This document shows, piece by piece, positions 1 to 20,651 of a stretch of DNA of 20,651 bases (positions are counted from its first letter, which is position 1; the number at the start of each line of letters is the position of its first letter). The DNA lies in the IMG/VR virus record IMGVR_UViG_3300047554_000009, positions 1 to 20,651 of that record. One strand, written 5' to 3'. Origin of the DNA: a virus. The notes beneath the pieces are model-generated. The model searched no databases. It was not told where the DNA came from and saw only the letters and a list, made by a program, of their open reading frames with translations. The translations under genes and the position numbers were made by a program.

Positions 1-2
1 TA

Positions 3-170
3 ATATGCCATGACTTAGGCAAAGCAGGATATTTCCACTTTGTTAGTCGTGGATACGTTCATCATGCAGGATCGCAGACAGTTGGAAACGACTTTGCTAA
101 GTGCCATGAGGAGCCAAGAGAGTGGATAAAGACTAACAGACCAGATATGTACGAGGCATTCTATGGCTGA
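3..170 (+). CDS. C-terminal fragment of an unknown protein, possibly a glycosyltransferase (5' end outside window)
   Basis: An open frame enters from the left edge and stops at the TGA at 168-170, giving about 55 codons. The visible part reads ICHDLGKAGYFHFVSRGYVHHAG, then a run ending in NRPDMYEAFYG. The pattern Asp, then Ala-Gly-Tyr, then an aromatic/basic strand and Val-His-His-Ala-Gly-Ser resembles the end of family 2 (GT-A) glycosyltransferases, where a late His binds the metal or phosphate; this is inference from a short tail. The stop overlaps the next start (163) by 8 bases, so the gene is co-transcribed and probably translationally coupled with the ART-like gene. The frame is convincing because it stays open up to the overlap, but the function is weakly supported. 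Confidence 0.5.
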   Translation: MCHDLGKAGYFHFVSRGYVHHAGSQTVGNDFAKCHEEPREWIKTNRPDMYEAFYG

Positions 171-1536
171 CGGATTACTAGCAAGTGGATTGAATTACAT
201 AGACCAGCAAAAACAGGCTTTAGCGGCTCGTTTAGGATTGTTGATGAATAATCCACAGGAATTTGCTGCTCAGTTAGGTAGTGAGGCTCGTCAAAGGGCT
301 GGAGTTGGTCTATTGGGTGAACCTAAGACTGCTCAGGAAATGGCATCAGGTGCATGGATTAATAGTCCGTATGGTCAGCAAGCAATGCAAGCAGGTAGCG
401 GATTTGCTGGTACTACGGCTTTACCTAAAGTAAAAATTAATCCTAATCTTGTTGGAACTGCTGAACAAAGAGCAGCCGAACAAGGCTACATTGATTATTT
501 GCATGGAACTCAACGATTAGACAGGTTATTAGAAGGCAAAACATTAAATCCTAAACGAGCCACTTCTGGTCCGATGCCATTTGGCACTCCTTCTACTGAA
601 TTATCTTCAAACTATGCAATGTCAAAGGCAGATACGTCTAGGATTGCATCAGACGTAGGTGATTTTAAAAATTACTTTCAAGTATCTCCTAAAGATATTG
701 GGCTTAGCGGTAGATCACCAATTTCTGTTGAAGATTCATGGAGGTATTTATCAAAAGATAAACAAGCAGAAATATTAGATAAAGCTAAACGTATTGGATA
801 CAAAGACCCAGAACAAGGTATGGGTGGATTTGTTTTGCATAATGATTCAAAAGGATTGCCATTTAGCGAAAAACATTGGGAATATGTTTTAAATAAGGAA
901 TCTGGCGGTAACCCCTTAACAGCATTGCGTAAAGTATATGCAGAAAGTGGGATGCTAGACCCATACGCTCCTTCTGAGCTTGCTGATATATATAGTTTGG
1001 CTGGAATTAAAGCACCTATAAGTCAAATGAATGCTCCGTGGACTGAAGCTAAAGGAGTGTTGTTAGGTAAAGCTCGCATAACTAATCCATTGCAAACAAC
1101 TGATGTTAAGAATTTGCAAGAAAACGTAATTCCTTATCTTAAAGAACAATTTAAAAATGATAGGACAAGGAAAGCTGCTTATGGTGCAGACCAATGGGAT
1201 AAGAACACAAAATTTACCCCTAAGGAATGGGTTAACCAACTTGAGCAAGATGTAGCTGCTGGAACAAATTCTTTTGTTTGGACTTCAATTCCTGACAAAA
1301 TTACTAAAAAGTTAAAAGATATTGGGTATAACGGAATTATTGATACAAGTGGCAAAGGTGGTAGTGGTACACCATATCCAGTTGTAATCCCTTTTGAGGC
1401 TGGTCAGATACGCTCAAGATTTGCACAATTTGATCCAGCAAAGATAGGGCAACCAGATATGTTAGCGGCAGGAGTCCCACTAGGATTACTTGCAGGAACT
1501 AATGTAGAGATGCCTAAGAAAGAGAAACGTAAGTAG
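163..1536 (+). CDS. Putative ADP-ribosyltransferase-like phage protein
   Basis: 457 residues. The N-terminal ~90 residues are helical and Gln/Ala/Gly-rich. Around residues 112-160 there is Y-L-H-G-T (H114), then a Gly/Pro loop, then L-S-S-N-Y-A (Y151), the order expected for the His and Tyr elements of H-Y-E class ADP-ribosyltransferases. The C-terminus has I-G-Y-N-G-I-I (387-393) and Q-I-R-S-R-F-A-Q-F-D-P (415-425) followed by D-M-L-A, an ending I know from phage polyvalent and ART-like proteins. The usual catalytic acid just before that last strand is not obvious: the region reads GTPYPVVIPFEAGQ. Activity is therefore uncertain. Substrate unknown; a role in modifying host proteins is inference. 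The central part is much more AT-rich than both ends, suggesting a swapped-in domain. The gene overlaps the upstream ORF by 8 bases and lies 26 bases before the small terminase gene. Confidence 0.6.
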   Translation: MADGLLASGLNYIDQQKQALAARLGLLMNNPQEFAAQLGSEARQRAGVGLLGEPKTAQEMASGAWINSPYGQQAMQAGSGFAGTTALPKVKINPNLVGTAEQRAAEQGYIDYLHGTQRLDRLLEGKTLNPKRATSGPMPFGTPSTELSSNYAMSKADTSRIASDVGDFKNYFQVSPKDIGLSGRSPISVEDSWRYLSKDKQAEILDKAKRIGYKDPEQGMGGFVLHNDSKGLPFSEKHWEYVLNKESGGNPLTALRKVYAESGMLDPYAPSELADIYSLAGIKAPISQMNAPWTEAKGVLLGKARITNPLQTTDVKNLQENVIPYLKEQFKNDRTRKAAYGADQWDKNTKFTPKEWVNQLEQDVAAGTNSFVWTSIPDKITKKLKDIGYNGIIDTSGKGGSGTPYPVVIPFEAGQIRSRFAQFDPAKIGQPDMLAAGVPLGLLAGTNVEMPKKEKRK

Positions 1537-1562
1537 CATGACATCCAGAGGATAATGCAAAA

Positions 1563-1895
1563 ATGGAAACAGAAGTCAGTAAAGAAGAAAAGACTACAGC
1601 GCATCCCGGCTTAACTAATGCTGGTAAGGGTAGACCTGCTGGAGTACCTAATAAGAGTACGGCAGTAGTACGTAATGCTATTGCTACGCTACTAGAGAAG
1701 AACGTGCCTTACATGGATAGATGGCTACAGAGGGTAGCTGAGGGCGATGAGGTCTATGGACTAAAGCCTGATCCTGCTAAGGCATTGGACTTGATGCAAA
1801 AGCTAAGTGAGTACCATATACCTAAGCTGGCTAGGACTGAGATAAGTGGCGTTGATGGTGCTCCTCAGCAGCACGTGGTTACATGGCAGAAGTAA
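1563..1895 (+). CDS. terS: Terminase small subunit-like protein
   Basis: 110 residues. Residues ~20-31 carry A-G-K-G-R-P-A-G-V-P-N-K, the basic G-K-x-x-G-x-x-N-K motif at the start of DUF5681-type and related small-terminase proteins. A helical region (about 34-60) and the ending D-L-M-Q-K-L-S-E-Y-H-I-P-K-L-A-R-T-E are also typical of that group. In packaging motors this subunit binds the phage DNA at the packaging site and hands it to the large subunit. The ribosome site AGAGGA lies about 12 bases before the ATG. The gene overlaps the large terminase start by 13 bases in another frame, the normal TerS-TerL arrangement, which strengthens the call. The sequence alone does not show DNA-binding specificity. 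Confidence 0.75.
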   Translation: METEVSKEEKTTAHPGLTNAGKGRPAGVPNKSTAVVRNAIATLLEKNVPYMDRWLQRVAEGDEVYGLKPDPAKALDLMQKLSEYHIPKLARTEISGVDGAPQQHVVTWQK

Positions 1896-3157
1896 TCGAG
1901 ATCGCTTATAAGCCAAGAGAACAGCAAAGGCTGATTCATGAGGCTATAGACAAGCACAGGTTTACAGTAGTAGTAGCCCATCGAAGAATGGGAAAGACTA
2001 TGTGTGCGTTGAATCACGCTATAAAGGCTGCAATAGAGTGCCAGAAACCTAACCCTAGATTTGCTTACATAGCTCCTACTTATGCTCAATCGAAACGTGT
2101 GGCTTGGGATTACTTGTTGGAATTTACTCGTCCTCTTGGGGCTGTGGCTAACATCTCAGAGCTTAGAGTTGACTTTTGGGGTAGGCGCATTAGTCTTTAC
2201 GGCTCTGATAATGCTGATAGCTTGCGTGGGCAGTATTTCGATGGCGTTATTCTCGATGAGATAGGCGACCAGAACCCTAAGATATGGAACGAGGTTATAC
2301 GTCCAGCACTAGCGGATAGGAATACTGATGAGGCTCCTACGTGGTGTCTATTTATTGGTACGCCTAAAGGTAGGAACCATTTCGCAGACTTTAGAGATAG
2401 GGCTAAGACTGCTGAAGGATGGGCATTACTAGAGTTTAAGGCTAGTGATACAGGGATTCTTGCGGCTAAGGAACTTAAAGACGCTCGTAAGGAAATGGGC
2501 GATGATAAGTACAACCAAGAGTTTGAGTGCAGCTTTGACGCAGCCGTAGAGGGTTCTTATTATGGGCAGATTATCAACAATCTTGAGGAGAAGAACCGGA
2601 TCACCACTATCGAGCCTGATGACTTATGTAAGTCTTATGTTGCTTGGGATTTGGGGATTAGCGATTCTACTTCTCTGTGGGTTGCTCAGGTGGTTGGAAA
2701 AGAAGTACGTCTCATTGATTTTACGGAAAACCACGGTGTCGGTCTGGACTGGTATGTACGCTGGCTCAAAGATAACGGCTACGAAGGCTTCACGCAGTTC
2801 TTGCCTCATGACGTCGAAGTCAGAGAATTAGGCACAGGAAAGAGCCGTAAAGAGGTTTTGCAGGAAGCTGGACTGGATATAACTGTAGCTCCTAGATTGT
2901 CGGTTGCAGATGGCATACAAGCCGTTAGAAGGCTATTGCCGCAATGCTGGTTCGATCATAAGACTAAGACAGGTCTTGATGCACTCAGGAACTATCGCAG
3001 GGAATATAACGAAAGACAGCAAGTGTTTTACGACAAGCCGCTACATGATTGGTCTAGCCATGCTTCAGACGCTTTCAGGTACTTAGCGATAAGTCTTGAC
3101 CAAGACGAGACTTCATGGCAGTCAGATTTGCCCATTAACACAAAATGGATTGTATAA
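1883..3157 (+). CDS. terL: Terminase large subunit (packaging ATPase/nuclease)
   Basis: 424 residues, a usual TerL length. The ATPase half shows a Walker A A-H-R-R-M-G-K-T (32-39), a Walker B V-I-L-D-E (122-126, catalytic E126) and a coupling motif I-G-T-P-K-G (158-163). The nuclease half has an RNase H-like fold signature: acidic residues at D255 (Y-V-A-W-D-L-G), D309 (F-L-P-H-D) and D395 (H-A-S-D-A-F-R-Y). The linker D-K-Y-N-Q-E-F-E-C-S-F (207-217) is typical of the Terminase_6 group. The protein translocates DNA into the procapsid through the portal by ATP hydrolysis and cuts concatemers. All key catalytic residues are present, so it looks functional. It starts inside the end of the small terminase gene and is followed 27 bases later by the portal gene. 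Confidence 0.95.
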   Translation: MAEVIEIAYKPREQQRLIHEAIDKHRFTVVVAHRRMGKTMCALNHAIKAAIECQKPNPRFAYIAPTYAQSKRVAWDYLLEFTRPLGAVANISELRVDFWGRRISLYGSDNADSLRGQYFDGVILDEIGDQNPKIWNEVIRPALADRNTDEAPTWCLFIGTPKGRNHFADFRDRAKTAEGWALLEFKASDTGILAAKELKDARKEMGDDKYNQEFECSFDAAVEGSYYGQIINNLEEKNRITTIEPDDLCKSYVAWDLGISDSTSLWVAQVVGKEVRLIDFTENHGVGLDWYVRWLKDNGYEGFTQFLPHDVEVRELGTGKSRKEVLQEAGLDITVAPRLSVADGIQAVRRLLPQCWFDHKTKTGLDALRNYRREYNERQQVFYDKPLHDWSSHASDAFRYLAISLDQDETSWQSDLPINTKWIV

Positions 3158-5553: not shown

Positions 5554-6513
5554 ATGAGCGATACTCAGAACACGACACCGCAAGGTAGTGGTGAGTTAAC
5601 GGTAGAAGGTGCAGCTAACGCTTTCTTGAGCATGATGGATCGGGAAGATGGCTCCGACAAGGAACAACCAGAATCCGCTTCAGAAGCTAACGAAAGCGAT
5701 GCCGAATCAGACGAGTATGAGTCTGAGGTAGAACAAGATGATGACGGTGAGGAGCAAGAGCAGCCTACGTATCTGGTTAAAGCAGCCGGAGAAGAACGTG
5801 AGGTAACGCTTGATGAGCTTATCAAGTCTTATCAACTTGGCACAGATTACACCAAGAAATCGCAAGCAGTAGCTGAGGAGCGTAAAGCCGTAGAGGCAGA
5901 GCGTCAAGCTGTTCAGGAAGCCAAGCAAATGCGTGATACGTACGCGCAGAGACTTGAGATGATTGAGCAAATGCTACAGCCTCAGCAAGAGGAAAATCTC
6001 GAATACCTGAAAGAGACTGATCCTATTGGATACTCTGTAAAGGTTGCAGAGATGATTCAGAGAGACAAGCAACTAGCTGCTGTACAAGCTGAACGGAGTC
6101 GAATCCAACAGCAACAGGAGCAGGATAGACAGGCACAGATGCAGCACGTAGTGGCTGAGGAAATGCAGAAATTGTCTAGCTTTATCCCTGAGTTCTCTGA
6201 TCCGGCTAAAGGTGAGGCTATCAGAAATGATATTCGAGCTTTTGGTAAGCAGATTGGATTTTCTGATAACGAATTAGCGGCTGTCTATGATAGTCGGGCT
6301 GTACTAACTCTGTATAAGGCGATGCAGTACGACAAGTTAGTTGCTAGTAAGCCAGCGATAACCAAGAAGGTTACAGAGGCTCCTAAAGCGATTAAGTCAG
6401 GCGTAAGCAAACCTAGAGATAGTAGTGCTGAAGAACTGAAGAAACTAAAGGCACGAGTTAAGTCTAGTGGTAGTCCACGTGATGCGGCAAGTGTATTTGA
6501 ACGCTTTTTATAA
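5554..6513 (+). CDS. Scaffolding protein
   Basis: 319 residues lying directly before the capsid gene, the normal scaffold position. Residues ~30-70 are strongly acidic (many Asp, Glu and Ser). About 70-95 holds Y-L-V-K-A-A-G-E-E-R-E-V-T-L-D-E-L, a small conserved module followed by S-Y-Q-L-G-T-D-Y-T-K-K, common in phage scaffolds. Residues ~95-200 are a Glu/Gln/Ala/Arg coiled-coil. The C-terminus is basic, with K-K-L-K-A-R-V-K-S, then R-D-A-A-S-V-F-E-R-F-L, fitting a capsid-binding tail. It would template procapsid assembly and then be released or degraded; no protease gene is visible in this window. AAGGAAA at 5543-5549 precedes the ATG at 5554. Confidence 0.82.
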   Translation: MSDTQNTTPQGSGELTVEGAANAFLSMMDREDGSDKEQPESASEANESDAESDEYESEVEQDDDGEEQEQPTYLVKAAGEEREVTLDELIKSYQLGTDYTKKSQAVAEERKAVEAERQAVQEAKQMRDTYAQRLEMIEQMLQPQQEENLEYLKETDPIGYSVKVAEMIQRDKQLAAVQAERSRIQQQQEQDRQAQMQHVVAEEMQKLSSFIPEFSDPAKGEAIRNDIRAFGKQIGFSDNELAAVYDSRAVLTLYKAMQYDKLVASKPAITKKVTEAPKAIKSGVSKPRDSSAEELKKLKARVKSSGSPRDAASVFERFL

Positions 6514-6524
6514 AGGATTGAATC

Positions 6525-7490
6525 ATGGCAATTTATAACGCCTACGACGCAATCGGTCAGCGCGAAGATTTGACCGACGTAATTTATGATATTTCGCCGA
6601 CTACTACTCCATTCATGAGTTCTATTGGCAAGACTAAGGCAACGGCTGTTTACCACGAGTGGCAGACCGACTCCCTCGCAGCTGCTACTACAAATAACGC
6701 TGCTGTTGAAGGTGCTGATGCTTCTGATGCTACTTTGACACCTACTACTCGCTTGGGTAACTACACTCAGATTCTGCAAAAGACTATCAAAGTCTCTGGC
6801 ACTCTGGATACAGTTAACAAAGCAGGAAGAAAATCTGAAAAAGCTTATCAATTAGCTAAGGCATCACAGGAGCTAAAGCGAGACCTAGAGACAATTCTCT
6901 TGTCTAACCAAGGTCGTTCGGCTGGTTCGTCTAACTCATCGGCTCGTAAGATGGGTTCGTTGCTGTCATGGATCAAGACTAACTCGTCAGTCCAGACTAA
7001 CGGTGGTGACCCAACTACTATCGGCGTATCGACACGTACAGACGGTAACACACGTACATTTACTGAGGCTCTGTTGAAAGAAGTAGTTGCTGAGGTATTC
7101 TCCTCTGGCGGTACTCCTAAGATTCTGATGGTTGGTGCTACTGGTAAACAGAAAGTATCTAGCTTCACAGGTCTGTCGGCTTACCGTTATAACGTCAATG
7201 CTGGTGGTGGTGGTGCTGGCGTTGGTGCTGCAACTATCGTCGGTGCTGCTGACGTTTACTTGTCTGACTTCGGTTCAATGAGCGTTGTTCCTAATATCTT
7301 CATGCGTACACGCGATGCTCTGGTGCTTGATCCTGAGTACGCTGCAATCGCTTATCTGCGTCCGTTCATGACTAACGAGCTTGCAAAAGCTGGTGATGCT
7401 GACAAGACTCAGATTCTGGTTGAGTGCACATTGGAAGTTAAGAACGAAGCTGCTCACGGTATCGTTGCTGACTTGAATATGTCTCTGTAA
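6525..7490 (+). CDS. Major capsid protein (DUF5309/SU10-type, HK97 fold)
   Basis: 321 residues. The opening N-A-Y-D-A-I-G-Q-R-E-D-L-T-D-V-I-Y-D-I-S, then P-T-T-T-P-F-M-S-S-I-G, is the hallmark of the DUF5309/SU10 major capsid group. It is followed by Y-H-E-W-Q-T-D-S-L and a Q-I-L-Q-K-T-I-K-V-S-G-T segment, also typical. The family adopts the HK97 fold and forms the hexamers and pentamers of the head. An Ala/Gly-rich stretch near residues 225-240 (GGGGAGVGAA) is encoded by a GGT run. AAGGATTG 6 to 13 bases upstream serves as ribosome site. Codon choice (GCT, GGT, ACT, CGT) appears biased to a few codons, as expected for the most abundant virion protein. A stem-loop follows 7 bases after the stop. 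Confidence 0.93.
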   Translation: MAIYNAYDAIGQREDLTDVIYDISPTTTPFMSSIGKTKATAVYHEWQTDSLAAATTNNAAVEGADASDATLTPTTRLGNYTQILQKTIKVSGTLDTVNKAGRKSEKAYQLAKASQELKRDLETILLSNQGRSAGSSNSSARKMGSLLSWIKTNSSVQTNGGDPTTIGVSTRTDGNTRTFTEALLKEVVAEVFSSGGTPKILMVGATGKQKVSSFTGLSAYRYNVNAGGGGAGVGAATIVGAADVYLSDFGSMSVVPNIFMRTRDALVLDPEYAAIAYLRPFMTNELAKAGDADKTQILVECTLEVKNEAAHGIVADLNMSL

Positions 7491-9135: not shown

Positions 9136-9684
9136 GTGAAGAATTGCAGCAAATGCAATGAAATCAAGCCTTACGAGATGTTCACTAAAGAGAAGTCTGT
9201 AAGTGATGGATTTAGCAGATGGTGTAAGCCTTGCAAAAAAGAATATAAAAGTTCATGGTATGCAAAAAATGCAGAATCAGAACGTAGTAAAGCATTAAAA
9301 TATCATTATGAAAATTATGAAAATCATAAAGAACAAAAAATTAAATTAGCTTCTGAATGGCAAAGCAGGAATAAAAACAGATACAAAGAAATAGCTAAAA
9401 AATGCTATGAAAAAACAAAGCACAAGAAATTTGCTTGGCAAGCATTTGCAAGAGCGGCAAAAAGAAATGCAGTTCCAAAATGGATAAATGAAAATTTAAA
9501 GCATGAAATACAAAAGTTTTACGTTGAAGCAAGGTTAAAGACTAGGGATACAGGGACTAAGTACGAAGTAGATCACATAGTTCCGATAATGGGTGAAAAC
9601 GTATGTGGTTTGCATGTTCCTTGGAATTTAAGAGTTATAACCCAGTTTGAAAACCGCAGTAAACAAAATAAATTTAAGGAGTAA
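9136..9684 (+). CDS. Free-standing HNH endonuclease with N-terminal zinc finger
   Basis: 182 residues, GTG start, five bases after the adaptor stop; GAGG at 9125-9128 is the ribosome site. C4-x2-C7 and C30-x2-C33 form an N-terminal zinc finger (C-S-K-C, then C-K-P-C). A Lys/Glu/Tyr-rich helical linker follows. The C-terminal HNH motif has Y-E-V-D-H-I-V-P-I (143-151, catalytic H147), then P-W-N-L-R-V (N164) and E-N-R-S-K-Q-N (N173), all present. Such proteins cut DNA and can home into copies of a phage genome lacking them. The central 9301-9420 has 28 G/C in 120 bases (about 23%), against 34 in 60 at 8641-8700 in the adaptor, a clear mark of foreign origin. Its 3' end contains the AAGGAG ribosome site of the next gene. 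Confidence 0.88.
   Translation: MKNCSKCNEIKPYEMFTKEKSVSDGFSRWCKPCKKEYKSSWYAKNAESERSKALKYHYENYENHKEQKIKLASEWQSRNKNRYKEIAKKCYEKTKHKKFAWQAFARAAKRNAVPKWINENLKHEIQKFYVEARLKTRDTGTKYEVDHIVPIMGENVCGLHVPWNLRVITQFENRSKQNKFKE
9676..9681 (+). promoter_or_regulatory. Shine-Dalgarno AAGGAG for the next gene, located in the HNH coding end
   Basis: AAGGAG at 9676-9681 lies in the last codons of the HNH gene and sits six bases before the ATG at 9688. It lets the downstream virion gene be translated despite the insertion. Confidence 0.75.
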
Positions 9685-13493: not shown

Positions 13494-14917
13494 TGGCAAA
13501 ACAAAAAGTTATTTTCGGTGAGTGGTTGCCAGATCAGCCTAGCGTTACTGGTGCGGTAATGGATGCTTATAATTGTTATCCAGTTACTAACGGTTATGCT
13601 CCGTTACGTGCTGCGGTAGATTACTCTCAAGATGCAGGTCAGAATTTACTTATTACGTTTGCAGGTAAATTCTCAGGTGCATCTACGTTATTTGCTGCTG
13701 GTGCTACACAGATTTATAAGTTTGACTCTAGCGATGCTAGTTTAGATGCGCTAACGACTACAGGTTATACGGCTGTTGAGGCATGGGATTCTACTCAGTT
13801 CGGTTCTAAGATGATCTTAGCTAACGGTGCTGATAAGTTACAGGCTTATGATTTAGGTTCATCGACGTATTTTGCTGATTTATCTGCTGATGCTCCTACG
13901 GCTAAGTATGTAACAGTAGTTCGTGACTTTGTTGTGGCTGCTAACGTAGGTGGTGAGGAGAATAAGGTCTATTGGTCGGATATTAACGACGAGACTGATT
14001 GGACTGCTGGTGCTGCATCTCAGGCTGACTCACAAATAGTACCTGATGGCGGTGATATTACTGGTATTGCAGGTGGTGAATACGGTCTAATCTTCTTAGA
14101 ACGTGCTATTTACCGCATGACGTACTCAGGAAGTCCGTATTTTTTCCAGTTTGATGCTATTTCTAGGACGTTAGGCTGTATGTCTAACGGTTCTATCACT
14201 CAATTTGGCGGTTTAACGTACTTTTTATCTGATGATGGCTTCTATGTCTGCGATGGTAAGTCCGTTAAGAACATTGGACTAGAAAAGGTTAATCGTTGGT
14301 TCTTTAATAACGTCAGTTTGAGCGAAGTTCAGACTGGTATGAGTGCGACGATTGATCCGGTAAAGAAATTAGTCATCTGGAACTTTAAGAATAACTTCGG
14401 TAAGCGATTCTTGCTGTATTACTCCATCGATTTGAACAAGTGGTCATACGGTTTAACGGATACGAACTATCTAGCGTATGGTCTGACACCTAGTGCCACC
14501 CTTGAGCAGATAGATAACTATAACAATAATCTAGATACCTTAGATATTCCGTTAGATTCACGTACTTGGGCTGGTGGTCAGCTTATATTCGTTGGTGTTA
14601 GAAACCAGAAGATCGTGGTTTTCTCTGGTGCATACTTGTCTGCTTACGTTACATCTGGAGATATAGATATTGGACGTTCTATTATTACATTGGCAAAACC
14701 TATTGTTGATAATGGAACAGCGTCAGTCGCAGTTGCTAGTAGAAAACTATTGTCAGATAGCGTCGAATTCGGAACGACAGCGACACCGGACTCAGATAAT
14801 CGAGTGCCATTGAGAGCTAACGGTAATTACCATCGTATCAAGGTATCTCCAACTAATGCTAATTGGGAAACTATTGTCGGTTGTGAAATTGAAATAGCTA
14901 CGCAGGGTAATCGATGA
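13493..14917 (+). CDS. Tail nozzle/hub-like β-propeller protein
   Basis: 474 residues from the ATG at 13493, overlapping the previous stop in TAATG; an upstream TTG at 13478 is inside the preceding gene and unlikely. The N-terminus reads F-G-E-W-L-P-D-Q-P, then A-Y-N-C-Y-P-V-T-N-G-Y-A-P-L-R, the recurring 'P-D-Q-x ... N-x-x-P-x-x-x-G-Y' opening of P22 gp10-like and nozzle proteins. Repeated Gly/Asp β-strands such as K-V-Y-W-S-D-I-N-D-E-T-D-W and Y-F-L-S-D-D-G-F-Y-V-C-D-G suggest a β-propeller. It would attach under the adaptor and form the tail tip. Assignment to a named family is moderate since I rely on motif memory. Confidence 0.7.
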   Translation: MAKQKVIFGEWLPDQPSVTGAVMDAYNCYPVTNGYAPLRAAVDYSQDAGQNLLITFAGKFSGASTLFAAGATQIYKFDSSDASLDALTTTGYTAVEAWDSTQFGSKMILANGADKLQAYDLGSSTYFADLSADAPTAKYVTVVRDFVVAANVGGEENKVYWSDINDETDWTAGAASQADSQIVPDGGDITGIAGGEYGLIFLERAIYRMTYSGSPYFFQFDAISRTLGCMSNGSITQFGGLTYFLSDDGFYVCDGKSVKNIGLEKVNRWFFNNVSLSEVQTGMSATIDPVKKLVIWNFKNNFGKRFLLYYSIDLNKWSYGLTDTNYLAYGLTPSATLEQIDNYNNNLDTLDIPLDSRTWAGGQLIFVGVRNQKIVVFSGAYLSAYVTSGDIDIGRSIITLAKPIVDNGTASVAVASRKLLSDSVEFGTTATPDSDNRVPLRANGNYHRIKVSPTNANWETIVGCEIEIATQGNR

Positions 14918-15711
14918 CTAGATCAGTACAGTTTCGTACTCTACCTGTATTCGGTGCTGATGAACGTGCTGTTAGTGAGGTTGTCCGTGGAATCATGGAC
15001 GGTAAAACGAATAATACTGGAACGATTACTTTAGCGACTGGTAATGCCACAACGACAACGCTGTATGACGGTCGTATAGGCAATGAGAGCTTAATATTAT
15101 TTGTCCCTGTATCTGATGCTGCTGAGGCTGACGCAGCTCCGTATGGAGCGTTTCAGGACACTACAGATCAATCGGCTGCGAATACTACTACGGCTTACGC
15201 TGTTACATTTAATACAACAGATTATTCTAGTGGCGTATATCTTTCTAATAGTTCGCGTATTAATGTCAGGAATTATGGAATTTACAATATTCAGTTTTCC
15301 ATACAGTTCAAGAATACGACAAATGATACTCAAGACGTAGATGTTTGGTTTAGAAAGAACGGTACGAATATAGCAGGATCAAATAGTCGGTTTGGTATGC
15401 CACCAAGAAAAAGCTCAGGTGATCCATCTCATACTATTGCTGCTTTAAACTTCTTTCTTGAGCTTCAGGCGAATGATTACATTGAAATAATGTGGCGAGT
15501 ATCTGATACAGGTGTGGTTCTTGAGCATTATGCAACAAGTTCTAGCCCAGATAGACCGTCTGTTCCTAGTGCTATTGTTACCGTAAATTATGTGGCTCCA
15601 TCAGCTACAAGTAATGTATATATTTCTAGCAAACAACAAGGACAAGCTACTATAGCTCATTGGGCTAATAGTACGGCAGATAAAACGTATGGTTACATTG
15701 TGGTGGGTTAA
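14914..15711 (+). CDS. Tail/fibre protein with a C1q/TNF-like jelly roll
   Basis: 265 residues; ATGA overlap with the nozzle gene. The N-terminus has an opening Q-F-R-T-L-P-V-F-G-A-D-E-R-A-V-S-E-V-V-R, followed by a G-T-I-T-L-A-T-G-N-A-T-T-T-T-L segment that I associate with phage tail proteins. Residues ~110-225 alternate β-strands: I-Y-N-I-Q-F-S-I-Q-F, then D-V-D-V-W-F-R-K-N-G-T, then F-F-L-E-L-Q-A-N-D-Y-I-E-I-M-W, a pattern typical of C1q/TNF-like jelly rolls. These trimerise and can be host-binding. No catalytic residues are visible. The overall reading is a trimeric receptor-binding or tail-decorating protein, with the jelly-roll name tentative. Confidence 0.65.
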   Translation: MTRSVQFRTLPVFGADERAVSEVVRGIMDGKTNNTGTITLATGNATTTTLYDGRIGNESLILFVPVSDAAEADAAPYGAFQDTTDQSAANTTTAYAVTFNTTDYSSGVYLSNSSRINVRNYGIYNIQFSIQFKNTTNDTQDVDVWFRKNGTNIAGSNSRFGMPPRKSSGDPSHTIAALNFFLELQANDYIEIMWRVSDTGVVLEHYATSSSPDRPSVPSAIVTVNYVAPSATSNVYISSKQQGQATIAHWANSTADKTYGYIVVG

Positions 15712-16110: not shown

Positions 16111-16845
16111 ATGGGTGGTGGCGGCGGACAACAGAGTAGTACATCAACAACGAGTATTGATCCAGCGATCAAGCCGTATGTTACTTATGGACTCGAGGAG
16201 GCTAAGCGTCTCTATCAGTCTGAATCACCTACCTTCTTTCCCGGTCAGACGTATGTCAGTCCATCGGCACAGACTCAGCAAGCCTTGCAAATGGCTCAGG
16301 AACGCGCTCTGGCAGGTTCTCCGCTAACAGGTGCGGCACAGGCTGAAACATTAGCTACGATTCAAGGACGAGGCGTTAATCCATTCCTAGCGGGTGCTTT
16401 AGAGCAGACTAATCGTCTAGCGGGTGAAGATTATCTCCGCAATATCCAGAAATTACAGTCAGGTGCTGCGTCAGTAGGTCGTTATGGTTCTGCTGCTCAA
16501 GGTCAACTAACAGGTCAGGCTCAGGATGTATTTGCTCGTGCATTAGCGGAGCAAGGTGGTCAATTAGCTTATAACTCGGCTGAAGCTGAACGTGCTCGCC
16601 AAATGGCGGCTGTTGGTGCTGCTCCTCAGATGGCTCAAGCTGACTATGCTGATATACAGCGATTACTTAGCGTTGGTGGTGCTAAAGAGGCTCAAAGTGC
16701 TGCTGTATTACAAGACGCTATGAATCGATTTAACTTCCAGCAAAACTTGCCGCAAATGAAATTGCAGCAATACGCTAATTTGTACTCTACTGCTCCTCAA
16801 GGTAGCACTACGACACAAACAGCGACACCGACAGGGGGTAAATAA
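16111..16845 (+). CDS. Internal/ejection-type virion protein (Ala/Gln-rich)
   Basis: 244 residues from the ATG at 16111, with GAGGTGT 5 to 10 bases upstream; a GTG at 16099 is in the preceding gene and is less likely. It opens with G-G-G-G-G-Q-Q-S-S-T-S-T-T-S, then I-D-P-A-I-K-P-Y-V-T-Y-G-L-E-E-A-K-R-L-Y and F-P-G-Q-T-Y-V-S-P-S-A-Q-T-Q-Q-A-L, a layout I know from small internal phage proteins next to ejection genes. The rest is helical, Ala/Gln/Arg-rich without a stable core, fitting proteins that unfold to be ejected. The function is inferred from context. The TAATG junction couples it to the next gene. Confidence 0.65.
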   Translation: MGGGGGQQSSTSTTSIDPAIKPYVTYGLEEAKRLYQSESPTFFPGQTYVSPSAQTQQALQMAQERALAGSPLTGAAQAETLATIQGRGVNPFLAGALEQTNRLAGEDYLRNIQKLQSGAASVGRYGSAAQGQLTGQAQDVFARALAEQGGQLAYNSAEAERARQMAAVGAAPQMAQADYADIQRLLSVGGAKEAQSAAVLQDAMNRFNFQQNLPQMKLQQYANLYSTAPQGSTTTQTATPTGGK

Positions 16846-17258
16846 TGGGTGATCCTATTTCGGCAGGTGTTGTAGGTTCTGTTCTTGCTCCTAGTGCTGG
16901 TGTTTCGTTAGCTGCCCCAACTATAAGCACAGCATTAGCTTCTGGTTTGGCTACTGGTGGTGGTATGGGTGGTGGTTCATTATTTGGATTTGAGCCTACT
17001 TTGGGTGGCTTAGGTCAAGGGATAACTCAAGCATTTAAAACGCCTATATTTGGTCAGGGCGGTACACTTTCTAATATTGGGCAAGCTGCTGGAGCATATA
17101 ACCAAGTAAATCAATTGCTTGGTGGTCAACAGCAACAAATGCAAATGCCGGGTGCAATGCAGGTTCAACGTGGTCAGGTTCAGCCAATGGATTACATGAG
17201 CCTATTAAATCCACAGCAACAATCGGTAATTATGCCGCAACCAATTTCTTTGCTATAG
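16845..17258 (+). CDS. Small Gly/Gln-rich internal virion-type protein
   Basis: 137 residues. The N-terminal half (about 1-60) is hydrophobic and Gly/Ala/Ser-rich (G-V-V-G-S-V-L-A-P-S-A-G-V, then T-G-G-G-M-G-G-G-S-L-F-G), which could insert into or line a membrane. The C-terminal half is Gln-rich (G-G-Q-Q-Q-Q-M-Q-M-P). I do not recognise a family. It lies between two internal-type proteins in a chain of overlaps, so a role in DNA ejection is a reasonable inference. Low-complexity composition makes homology searches weak. The stop is followed by seven bases including the AGGTGA ribosome site of the next gene. Confidence 0.6.
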   Translation: MGDPISAGVVGSVLAPSAGVSLAAPTISTALASGLATGGGMGGGSLFGFEPTLGGLGQGITQAFKTPIFGQGGTLSNIGQAAGAYNQVNQLLGGQQQQMQMPGAMQVQRGQVQPMDYMSLLNPQQQSVIMPQPISLL

Positions 17259-17265
17259 GTGAAAT

Positions 17266-18858
17266 ATGGCTGATACTATTTTTGGAATGCCATTAGATCA
17301 AGCACAGAGTAAATATGGCAATGCGTCAAGTTTTAGTTTGTCTGATCTTGTGCCTAACATCTATGGCGGTGTTGCTTCTGGCTATGAAGGTATTTTAGGT
17401 AATCAACAAGCGCAACAAATAGGACAACGAGCAAACATTGGTGGGTTGCTTGGTGCTGCTGCTGCTTTGGCTCAAGGTATGGGGTCACAAGGCTCTAGGA
17501 GATCTGGAGTTCAGAATGTTTTAAATGCTTTAGGTGCTGGTTACGGTGTTGCTGGTAATGTTGCTCAACAAGGATTACAGAACTTTGCTCTACAACAGCA
17601 AGTAGCTGGTCAGCAATTACAGCGTCAAAAGACTATGCAAGATTTGCTAAGACAGCAACAGGCATTACAGTCTATTGAAACGCTTATTGCTACTGATCCT
17701 AGCGTTAAAGATAATCCTTCAATGATTGCTTATCTGCGGAATAATCCAGATAAAGCTCTTGAAATGGTTGCTCAACGTAGTGCATTAGAGTCTTATCGTG
17801 CATCAAGATTAAAACCGCAAGCTCCTGCTGAAGTTGCTACTGCATATCCTGTACCAGTTGAAGGTTTAACGGTAACTCCTGATGGTCAGCCTATCCCACA
17901 GGCAAAGATACAGCCTATTCAGCAAGCGCAAAACATTACTCCTAGAGTATCTGAGTTGCAATCAAAGATTGATTCTGCTGATGTTGATGCTGAATACTAT
18001 ACGGCTATTGGCAAACTTGACGATGCTAAGAAATCACAAGATATAGCTAATAATCTGCGTGGTTTGGCTCGTAAAGAAGGTTTAGTAAACCAAGTAAATC
18101 CTCAGCTTGATGCAGTATTCCCTACGCTAAAGAAGCGTGTTGAATCGCTAAAGAAAAGTGCTCCAAATATGACTCAGGAGCAGATTGTTGCAGAACAAAA
18201 CAACATTCTTCAGGATGATGCAAAGCTCTTAGAGTCTCTTAATCCAACATTGCAAGCTGCTGAATTAGCTCGTCGTCGCGCTCAGGCTACCGTTATTGAT
18301 ATGGGTAGCAGAGAGATGGAGAAAGAGTTTGCTAAGGGTGTAGTAGAAGATACTCGTAGCTCATTTGGTCAAGCTAAAGCAGCTGTTAATACCATTAATA
18401 CAATTCAACGTCTAAAGCCTATTATTAGTGCTGGTGTCTATGAAGGCGTATTGTCTGGAGCGCCTAAAGCTGTAGATCAAATAGCTACTGCATTGGGCGT
18501 TAGTGGTAAGAGTACACAAGAAAAGCTGCAACGTACTGCTGTGGCTATGCAAGGTTTGGCATCATTAGAATTGACTGCTGCTGAAGCTATGAAAGGTCAA
18601 GGCGCAATTACTGAGAATGAGCGTACTTTGATCGCTCGTGCTGCTGGTGGTAACTTGAGTAACTTTACATCGGGTGAAGTTCAGGCATTGCTAGACTCAT
18701 TGGATAAAGTTGCTCGATACAAGGTTCAGTCTCATCAGCAAAACTATGAAGTAATGAGTAACGATCCTGTAGGCAAGAAATACTCAAAGTATTACAAACT
18801 AGAAATACCTGGCGGTGGCAAGAAAGTATATAACCCTGCTACTGGAAGGATTGAGTAA
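17266..18858 (+). CDS. Internal/ejection-type virion protein
   Basis: 530 residues; AGGTGA at 17257-17262 is the ribosome site. Residues ~55-80 and ~90-110 are Gly/Ala-rich, then a Gln-rich helix (about 115-145) with repeated Q-Q and L-R-Q-Q-Q-A-L. Residues 220-400 form long charged helices. A conserved-looking C-terminal segment T-A-A-E-A-M-K-G-Q-G-A-I-T-E-N-E-R, then A-R-A-A-G-G-N, then G-E-V-Q-A-L-L-D-S-L-D-K-V-A-R-Y, resembles ends of internal phage proteins. The protein ends with Y-N-P-A-T-G-R-I-E. A DNA-ejection role fits. No lysozyme or transglycosylase motif is visible. The stop overlaps the next start in TAATG. Confidence 0.68.
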   Translation: MADTIFGMPLDQAQSKYGNASSFSLSDLVPNIYGGVASGYEGILGNQQAQQIGQRANIGGLLGAAAALAQGMGSQGSRRSGVQNVLNALGAGYGVAGNVAQQGLQNFALQQQVAGQQLQRQKTMQDLLRQQQALQSIETLIATDPSVKDNPSMIAYLRNNPDKALEMVAQRSALESYRASRLKPQAPAEVATAYPVPVEGLTVTPDGQPIPQAKIQPIQQAQNITPRVSELQSKIDSADVDAEYYTAIGKLDDAKKSQDIANNLRGLARKEGLVNQVNPQLDAVFPTLKKRVESLKKSAPNMTQEQIVAEQNNILQDDAKLLESLNPTLQAAELARRRAQATVIDMGSREMEKEFAKGVVEDTRSSFGQAKAAVNTINTIQRLKPIISAGVYEGVLSGAPKAVDQIATALGVSGKSTQEKLQRTAVAMQGLASLELTAAEAMKGQGAITENERTLIARAAGGNLSNFTSGEVQALLDSLDKVARYKVQSHQQNYEVMSNDPVGKKYSKYYKLEIPGGGKKVYNPATGRIE

Positions 18859-20651
18859 TGGCTAAAGTTATTCAAGTACCCGGAATGGGAGATGTAGAGT
18901 TTCCTGACTATATGACAGATCAGGAAATAAGCTCTGCTATTCAGAGAAATATGCAAGGTTCAGTAATGAATCAGGCTATTCCTTACTCTCCTAAAGTAGA
19001 GGCATTACGATCTGCTGCTGGTGGTGCTACGTTTGGATTTGGTGAAGAAATAGAGGCTGCATTGCGGTCTGGTGCTATTTCAGGTTCACAGTATGAGAAT
19101 TTGCGTAATAGATTAAGAGCGCAACAAAGCCAATTCCAACAAGAATATCCTGTGACTGGTGCTGTTACTGAAATCGGCGGTGCTATAGCTGCTCCATTAG
19201 GTGCATTTAAAGCGTTAGGTCGTGCTGCTCCTGCTGTACAAGAGGCTATTACAGGCACTACATTGACAGGTCAAATAGCTAGAGGTACTGGTGTAGGTGC
19301 TGCTACAGGCGCGTTAACTGGTGCTGGGACTGCTGAGACTGATGTTAGTGGTAAGGCATTAGAGTCTGGCGTATTTGGTGGTGCATTAGGTGGAACAGTT
19401 CCAGTTGTATTGCGTGGTGCTGGTAACGTAATTAAGAATGTATTAACTGCGTCTGGTGTTGGCGATCAACCGGGTGCTGCTTCTAAGATGATAGCTAATG
19501 CGCTACAGAAAGAGAATTTAACCACTCAAGAAGCTGCTCAGTTACTTAATGAAATGGAGCGTGTTGGCGTTCCTCGTCCTGTATTGGCTGATCTTGGTAA
19601 GAGTTTGCAGGACTTAGCTTATTCAGCTTATGTCGTTCCATCAGGTCAAAAGGCATCAACAGCTAGATTCTTAGAGTCAAGAATGATCGATCAGCCTAGC
19701 GATATTGTTAAAGGCTTAGTTGAGAAAGCTGGTTTAGGTAAAAATGTTAATGGATATGAGTATTTGCAATTCTTAGCGGAGAATCAAAAGTCTGCTGCTA
19801 GTGCTAAATATCCATTAGCTTATAGCAAGAATATTTACGCTAAAGATTTTAGGCAATTTATGGATCGTCCTGTATTTCAGGATGCTTATAAAGAGGCTCA
19901 AAAACGTGCGGCTGTTTACGGAGATACATTGCCTGACTTGGATATTTTCCTAAGTGATAGGAAAGTTCCTACTGATGTAATGCATCAAGTAAAAATAGGT
20001 CTTGATCGTATTGTTGAAAAAGAAACAGACGCAATTACAGGTAAAGTTACTGGATATGGTAGAGATGTAGCTACAGTAAGAAAAGAATTTAACGATCTTA
20101 TTAAGACTAAAAATCCTATATATGCCAAAGCTAATGCTGAATTTGCTGATAATGAGCGTATTAAATCAGCGTTTGAAGTAGGTCAAAAATATCAAAAACT
20201 TGACTATAAAGAAGCATTAGATAATCTTAAAAAGATGAATGATTCTGAAAAAGAAGCATTTCGTCTAGGTATGATGTCTGACGTAAACTCTCGTCTTGAG
20301 AACTTTAAAGGCGGTGATTTTGCTAGACAAGTATTTAAGAGCGATAAGCAGAAATCATTGCTGCGTTATGCGTTTACCGACCAGAATCAATATAATGATT
20401 TTGTTAAGTATGTTGATGCTCTTGAAGGTCAAACAAAAACAGCTAAGTCATTAATGGGTGGCTCTCAGACTGGTGAGCGTTTATCTACAAGTCAAGGTGC
20501 TGCTGAGTTAGGTTCATTAGCGCAAAATTACGCTAGAGGTGGATTAACTGGCGTTGCTATGGACATTGCTCGTCAGGGATTAGCAAGAACTAAAGGTATT
20601 AGCGGAGAAACTTCCGCAGAGCTTCAAAAGCGATTATTCTCTACTGATCCT
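18858..20651 (+). CDS. Large internal/ejection-type virion protein with glycine zipper (3' end outside window)
   Basis: The ATG at 18858 opens a frame of 598 codons that runs off the right edge. It begins V-P-G-M-G-D-V-E-F-P-D-Y-M-T-D-Q-E-I, an N-terminal module ('V-E-F-P-D-x-M-(S/T)-D-x-x-I') I recall from large phage internal proteins. Residues ~50-120 hold F-G-F-G-E-E-I-E-A-A-L and an R-N-R-L-R-A-Q-Q-S helix ending in Y-P-V-T-G-A-V. Residues ~133-180 form a glycine zipper with G-x-G-x-G and G-x-x-x-G spacing, fit for membrane insertion. The rest (190-598) is helical and charged. It probably forms part of the DNA-ejection channel. The full length and C-terminal domain cannot be seen. Confidence 0.72.
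   Translation, partial: MAKVIQVPGMGDVEFPDYMTDQEISSAIQRNMQGSVMNQAIPYSPKVEALRSAAGGATFGFGEEIEAALRSGAISGSQYENLRNRLRAQQSQFQQEYPVTGAVTEIGGAIAAPLGAFKALGRAAPAVQEAITGTTLTGQIARGTGVGAATGALTGAGTAETDVSGKALESGVFGGALGGTVPVVLRGAGNVIKNVLTASGVGDQPGAASKMIANALQKENLTTQEAAQLLNEMERVGVPRPVLADLGKSLQDLAYSAYVVPSGQKASTARFLESRMIDQPSDIVKGLVEKAGLGKNVNGYEYLQFLAENQKSAASAKYPLAYSKNIYAKDFRQFMDRPVFQDAYKEAQKRAAVYGDTLPDLDIFLSDRKVPTDVMHQVKIGLDRIVEKETDAITGKVTGYGRDVATVRKEFNDLIKTKNPIYAKANAEFADNERIKSAFEVGQKYQKLDYKEALDNLKKMNDSEKEAFRLGMMSDVNSRLENFKGGDFARQVFKSDKQKSLLRYAFTDQNQYNDFVKYVDALEGQTKTAKSLMGGSQTGERLSTSQGAAELGSLAQNYARGGLTGVAMDIARQGLARTKGISGETSAELQKRLFSTDP

Follow-up and report, generated by a model that had tools for sequence, protein, structure and literature searches.

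The gene that lies just upstream of the terminase genes in this viral DNA raises the question of whether it represents a fixed frame into which different effector cores are swapped. A first-pass annotation, made from the letters of the sequence, had described its middle part (420-1380) as A+T-rich and ADP-ribosyltransferase (ART)-like, and as seemingly acquired between ends that resemble the local backbone. In the window, by which we mean the whole stretch of 20,651 nucleotides that was analyzed (IMG/VR virus record IMGVR_UViG_3300047554_000009), this gene, referred to here as the cargo gene, is indeed located directly 5' of the genes for the small and large terminase subunits (TerS and TerL), followed by the portal and capsid genes (Table 1). 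Its first eight bases coincide with the last eight of the upstream gene (UP), stop codon included; UP is GT-A glycosyltransferase-like by eye and had no match in Pfam or PHROG. Scans of the cargo protein against Pfam (E<=10), PHROG and NCBIfam gave no match, a sequence search of the PDB returned nothing useful, and no recognised domain was found in the leader. Neither the whole protein nor its MATLEETL-type leader nor its tail matched anything in named phages.

Table 1. Positions of features in the window and in sister loci, with the cores found behind the window-type leader
Feature	Record	Position	Strand	Remark
UP gene, 3' end	window	1..170	+	within conserved left arm; stop overlaps cargo start (ATGGCTGA)
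Cargo gene	window	163..1536	+	457 aa; ATG to TAG
Constant N-terminal frame (leader)	window	163..416	+	about 84 residues, MADGLLASGLNYIDQQ...GSGFAGT; DNA joint 390-416
Exchanged core (core A)	window	417..1392	+	36.8% G+C; tentative ART-like domain
C-terminal tail (IRSRFAQFDPAKIGQPDMLAAGVPLGLLAGTNVEMPKKEKRK)	window	1393..1533	+	constant only behind cores with FDP ending
Spacer CATGACATCCAGAGGATAATGCAAAA	window	1537..1562	+	precedes TerS; 26 bp after cargo stop
Small terminase subunit candidate (TerS)	window	1563..1895	+	110 aa; right flank
Large terminase subunit (TerL)	window	1883..3157	+	survey anchor; 64% identical to Methylophilales phage Venkman TerL
Core B	L003, L018, L019			
Core C	L005-L007, L013, L020, L119			
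Core D	L004			distant version in L118
Core E	L008-L010			
Core F	L011			
Core G	L012, L014			
Core H	L015			
Core I	L016			
Core J	L017			
Insert between TerS and TerL	L004	6205-6882		Dam or N6_N4 methyltransferase or HNH_3
Insert between TerS and TerL	L011	5919-6356		as above
Insert between TerS and TerL	L046	2876-3361		as above
Insert between TerS and TerL	L119	2781-3263		as above
Insert between TerS and TerL	L072	4327-5004		as above
Insert between TerS and TerL	L118	3031-3645		as above
ParB-like + methyltransferase-like gene	L016, L034, L038, L050, L059, L068			by eye
ParB-like + methyltransferase-like gene	L073, L074, L081, L089, L092, L136			by eye

Base composition of the cargo gene

The base counts of the first-pass annotation were reproduced (30.0% G+C at 661-780, and by direct count 29 G/C out of 60 in each of the flanks 301-360 and 1441-1500), and the dip survived a proper window analysis, in which the core (418-1392) had 36.8% G+C compared with 46.3% for the N-terminal frame (163-417) and 43.8% for the C-terminal part (1393-1536). 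The window outside the cargo gene has 43.0% G+C. The third-position G+C was 0.29, 0.21 and 0.28 for the N-terminal frame, core and C-terminal part, respectively, and about 0.40-0.43 for the terminase, portal and capsid genes. However, composition alone was dropped as proof of acquisition because equal dips occur elsewhere in the window: 58 of 1900 120-nt segments also have 33% G+C or less, the lowest 975-nt stretch has 36.0% G+C, and a comparable dip is found, for instance, around 9187-9407. The dip in the core nevertheless goes beyond chance, since the cores of all 14 sister loci are A+T-rich (30.5-38.4% G+C, with a third-position G+C of 0.14-0.23) behind N-terminal frames of 45-50% G+C, and since the step in composition coincides with the recombination joint.

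Exchange of cores at one site

A search of IMG/VR with the cargo protein yielded 22 loci, two of which were similar over nearly the whole length (69%), while in most of the 22, residues 1-85 matched at 93-99% and the similarity then ended. Across 14 or more loci the N-terminal frame was 79-99% identical. When the DNA of 14 sister loci was aligned with the window, alignability fell from 85-100% at 1-420 to 0% at 421-1380 and was back at 90-100% from the terminase onward; the left alignable arm ended at base 390-416, and the alignment resumed at 1392-1536 in 13 of the loci and at 1708 in the remaining one, close to the borders of 420 and 1380 that had been drawn initially. The left joint thus lies within codons 76-85, and the right joint is close to the stop codon. 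At least ten kinds of core were found behind the window-type leader (Table 1), and 217 pairs have the N-terminus in common and the core not.

The reciprocal arrangement, in which the same core follows other leaders, was also found. Clustering of the first cargo genes by single linkage, which made some clusters broad, gave nine N-terminal families and fifteen core families, and four of the core families occur behind two or more unrelated N-termini. In 67 pairs, the core or C-terminal sequence is in common and the N-terminus is not; for example, 1244 nt at 95.9% DNA identity in L017 and L043, and 369 nt at 97.3% in L037 and L082, follow unrelated N-termini. Core A itself is present behind at least eight other N-termini, including the leaders of L002 and L135 and those of other phages that carry it behind leaders of their own (L213, L214-L216, L217, L218, L220, L221). 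In L225-L228 it is also joined in one polypeptide to a segment that bears the metallopeptidase motif HELTH, and in L224 to a methyltransferase-like end, both partners having been read by eye. Two cores in one protein were likewise seen in L016 (GNAT and ART), whereas the window has one. The fixed frame with a swapped middle that the first-pass annotation had suggested is therefore well founded, as the same N-terminus carries many cores and cores recur behind unrelated N-termini, and we regard it as practically certain that the members of one podophage lineage, closely related phages of fresh water, swap cores with each other at a single site.

The two ends of the gene, both of which had been taken as conserved, differ in this respect. 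The N-terminus is constant in the 14 sister loci, but the idea of a tail as fixed as the leader was dropped, because about one gene in two lacks the tail, which is absent behind several cores (those of L004, L008-L010, L011, L012 and L118). Its constancy is restricted to genes with a core that terminates in the motif IRSRFAxFDP, and its FDP...DLLA part accompanies core A in unrelated phages too.

The leader and the core are both under purifying selection, with a dN/dS of 0-0.21 for the leader and a dN well below dS for core A. The dS of the leader was lower than that of the terminase in 104 of 105 pairs (median 0.42 versus 1.18), which is expected if recombination spreads or homogenises the leader. 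We read this as a probable sign of such spreading or homogenisation; constraint on synonymous sites could be an alternative source of the low dS.

Of 80 loci that were located through the large terminase gene and included UP, 12 had an empty site in front of the terminase genes, and in most of these the UP stop is followed by about 21 nt and then by the TerS start. In two empty loci (L044 and L097), the spacer CATCCAGAGGATAATGCAAAA is located directly after the UP stop and is preceded by CATGA, as in the window. The spacer after the cargo stop is the same as the spacer after the UP stop in these two loci, and therefore marks the insertion point. Other genes were observed in the vicinity. Between TerS and TerL, some sister phages carry genes for Dam or N6_N4 methyltransferases or HNH_3 endonucleases, and in many loci TerL is preceded by a ParB-like and methyltransferase-like gene together with a different small-terminase-like gene (MIEHIPSAENKR...), with functions assigned by eye (Table 1). 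In L211, about 840 nt (5712-6550) interrupt the large terminase match after residue 390 and may be an intron or intein.

With regard to the lineage, TerL is about 45% identical to that of HTVC010P-type pelagiphages, in addition to its identity with that of Venkman, and among species genomes it found SAR11-type relatives only (43-45%). Neither Venkman nor HTVC106P has a cargo-type gene at the site, and no relative of core A was found among 84,980 species genomes. A 35% identical relative of the L037 gene, which combines another leader with core D, is present in two complete genomes (MW202462 and MW202544) that are uncultured and come from Manatee Spring; in MW202462 this relative lies just before the terminase genes. 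A scan of six sister records (19-38 kb, possibly incomplete) found no integrase (PF00589), and no second copy of the leader was found in six sister records. An earlier description of the site was not found in the open-access literature.

Enzyme families of the cores

Several of the sister cores belong to families of known effectors. Pfam matches to ART-PolyVal were obtained for L015 (1.8e-21), L088 (5e-11) and L022 (7e-8), and matches below the Pfam cut-off for L005 (1e-5), L016, L080 and L139. A PBECR5 nuclease was identified in L017 (2e-22) and also in L043, and a GNAT domain in L087 (4e-10) and, below cut-off, in L016. L029 contains LPD23 together with an HEMQH motif, and L004 matches PHROG 2579, 'ParB C-terminal domain'.

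ART identity is established by Pfam for several sister cores, but for the window's own core A, which the first-pass annotation had called ART-like, it is tentative. Core A had no match to ART-PolyVal (PF18760), but it contains candidate motifs in the histidine of LHGT (residue 114) and the tyrosine of SNYAM (residue 151), and neither the LHGT histidine nor the SxY tyrosine varies among 14 core A sequences, the assignment to the H/Y ARTs being by motif. The acidic aspartate of strand 5 in H-Y-D ARTs, a feature of polyvalent ARTs (PMC5512222), is replaced by proline in the window (PVVIPF, aligned by eye) and by glutamine in most core A relatives, and aspartate is found at this position in L218, L220 and L221. 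Comparison of core A with the sister ART profile was weak (P 33%).

Structure prediction gave a poor AlphaFold2 model for the full-length protein (pLDDT 43) and one of middling quality for the core alone (pLDDT 63), with a strand at core residues 24-28 and a low-confidence, helical tyrosine region. The top Foldseek PDB row for the core A model was the ART-type anti-CRISPR AcrIF11 (6KYF, PMC12421852; prob 0.30, Z 3.4 over 104 residues), a match below the level that shows kinship; AcrIF11 differs in being a stand-alone protein of 137 residues, and no sequence similarity between it and core A was shown. The weak viral matches in BFVD include several ART-PolyVal proteins. Matches to death domains (Foldseek, VIA; Z about 4) were not credited because they cover the helical middle only. 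Considering the motifs and the fold matches, ART is the likeliest family for core A, possibly with altered catalysis, and we hold this assignment to be slightly better than even. A separate weak match (Z 3.5, 100 residues) was observed between the model of window 418-1533 and a pre-ejectosome protein of cyanophage A4 (9k3a_B).

Proposed mechanism and alternative explanations

Our best reading is that of a polymorphic-toxin-like cassette with a single site, supplied from the effector pool of polyvalent proteins, in a podophage lineage of Venkman/HTVC010P kinship. It begins with a constant leader that overlaps UP translationally; an effector core that can be exchanged comes next, and about half of the genes end in a constant tail. 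Cores would be exchanged by homologous recombination between co-infecting phages, for which the 3' end of UP with the leader, and the spacer with the tail, would serve as conserved arms. The leader may carry the protein into the capsid or the ejection apparatus, and the core would act on the newly entered host, by ADP-ribosylation, acetylation, RNA cleavage or proteolysis according to its type. Two considerations lead us to infer that the leader loads the protein into the virion and that the protein enters with the DNA and acts on the new host: the families to which the effectors belong, and reports that link genes of this kind to head-packaging loci, a location described as a hallmark of packaged phage ARTs (PMC9503650, PMC5512222). 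The purpose would be to disarm defence, which we favor, or alternatively to reprogram the cell, and the turnover of cores would reflect an arms race with host defences. The whole account of a plug-in effector cassette, including delivery by the virion, seems to us probable. It is possible, and put forward tentatively, that the cassette represents virion-delivered counter-defence on the polymorphic-toxin plan, in which a short leader loads any core fused to it, recombination refreshes the cores at one terminase-proximal site, and core A is a new divergent family of the ART type, in podophages in which no integrase was found.

Alternatively, the exchange may be real and the product an intracellular late protein involved in superinfection exclusion or lysis timing, or an early counter-defence protein acting after entry, with a leader that serves for folding, localisation or binding of a host factor. 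The interval before the large terminase in sister phages also holds Dam, N6_N4_Mtase, ParB-like and HNH genes, whose products are not necessarily virion proteins, the site can be empty with its neighbours kept, and packaging of the cargo into the virion is a prediction. In contrast, injection is the presumed fate of proteins in the ART, PBECR, GNAT and zincin families and agrees with a gene position next to late packaging genes (PMC5512222, PMC9503650). We consider an intracellular product the less likely reading.

The conserved ends might also be mere recombination arms with little function in the protein, the swapping then being neutral phage mosaicism, as would agree with the other mosaic genes in the window (14914-15708, 16845-17255 and 17266 onward) and with the unusually low dS of the leader. 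This is quite improbable, since the low dN/dS of the leader indicates selection on the protein, and since the replacement cores stay in frame and the identifiable ones belong to conflict-effector families, not to random genes. Finally, unrelated sequences could have been joined through short common arms during assembly, given that the sister loci are all metagenomic contigs and that the window-type leader joined to core A was found in one record only, the window. However, for each of cores B, C, E and G the joint was found in two or more assemblies, the core in the window is bordered on either side by ends of its own lineage type, and the complete genome MW202462 has a gene of the same kind in the same position, which makes a chimera scarcely credible.

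The favored cassette is best compared with known systems. As in the polyvalent proteins (PMC5512222), the effectors come from a pool including ART-PolyVal, PBECR, GNAT, zincin and LPD23, the genes adjoin virion or packaging genes, and the products are thought to be injected. However, polyvalent proteins are typically multidomain, up to very large, and variable in architecture, and were stated not to follow a plan of constant N-terminus and variable toxin (Iyer et al. 2017, PMC5512222), whereas the proteins described here are short, with one core (rarely two), a constant leader and one fixed site of exchange. In its plan the cargo is similar to polymorphic toxins and most of all to the MuF toxins, which temperate phages encode beside portal or terminase genes (PMC5576092) and in which a constant N-terminal region likewise precedes effector domains that vary and come from a common pool. 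In contrast to these, the window protein has no MuF domain by Pfam scan, no integrase was found in the sister records scanned, half of the genes have a constant tail, and there is no regular downstream immunity gene; in the window, the cargo is followed by the spacer and then TerS, and a 61-aa ORF 3' of the cargo is present in no more than four sister loci (L003, L056, L079 and L167). T4 Alt, an ART carried by the phage that modifies the new host, may serve as a model of how such a protein works, but its active site is of the R-S-E type and it is not exchanged as a cassette, and the Alt/VIP2-type (R-S-E) ART profile had no Pfam match in the window protein.

Nature has here combined one constant leader with many different effectors at a single site, which opens the questions of whether the leader is a portable device for virion loading, what each core does, and how fast such weapons are changed. 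It also offers a route, based on position, to new counter-defence enzymes that profiles miss.

Variation was observed at other places in the window as well. A 182-aa gene at 9136-9684 (32% G+C, HNH-like by eye, no Pfam match) is absent at that place from all four relatives compared. A 265-aa gene at 14914-15708 could be aligned throughout in two of four relatives and at its ends only in the other two, and is thus another mosaic gene. The right end (16845-20651) is a second variable region, in which one third or nothing of the genes of 137, 530 and 598+ aa could be aligned with four relatives, and the latter two genes have a low third-position G+C.
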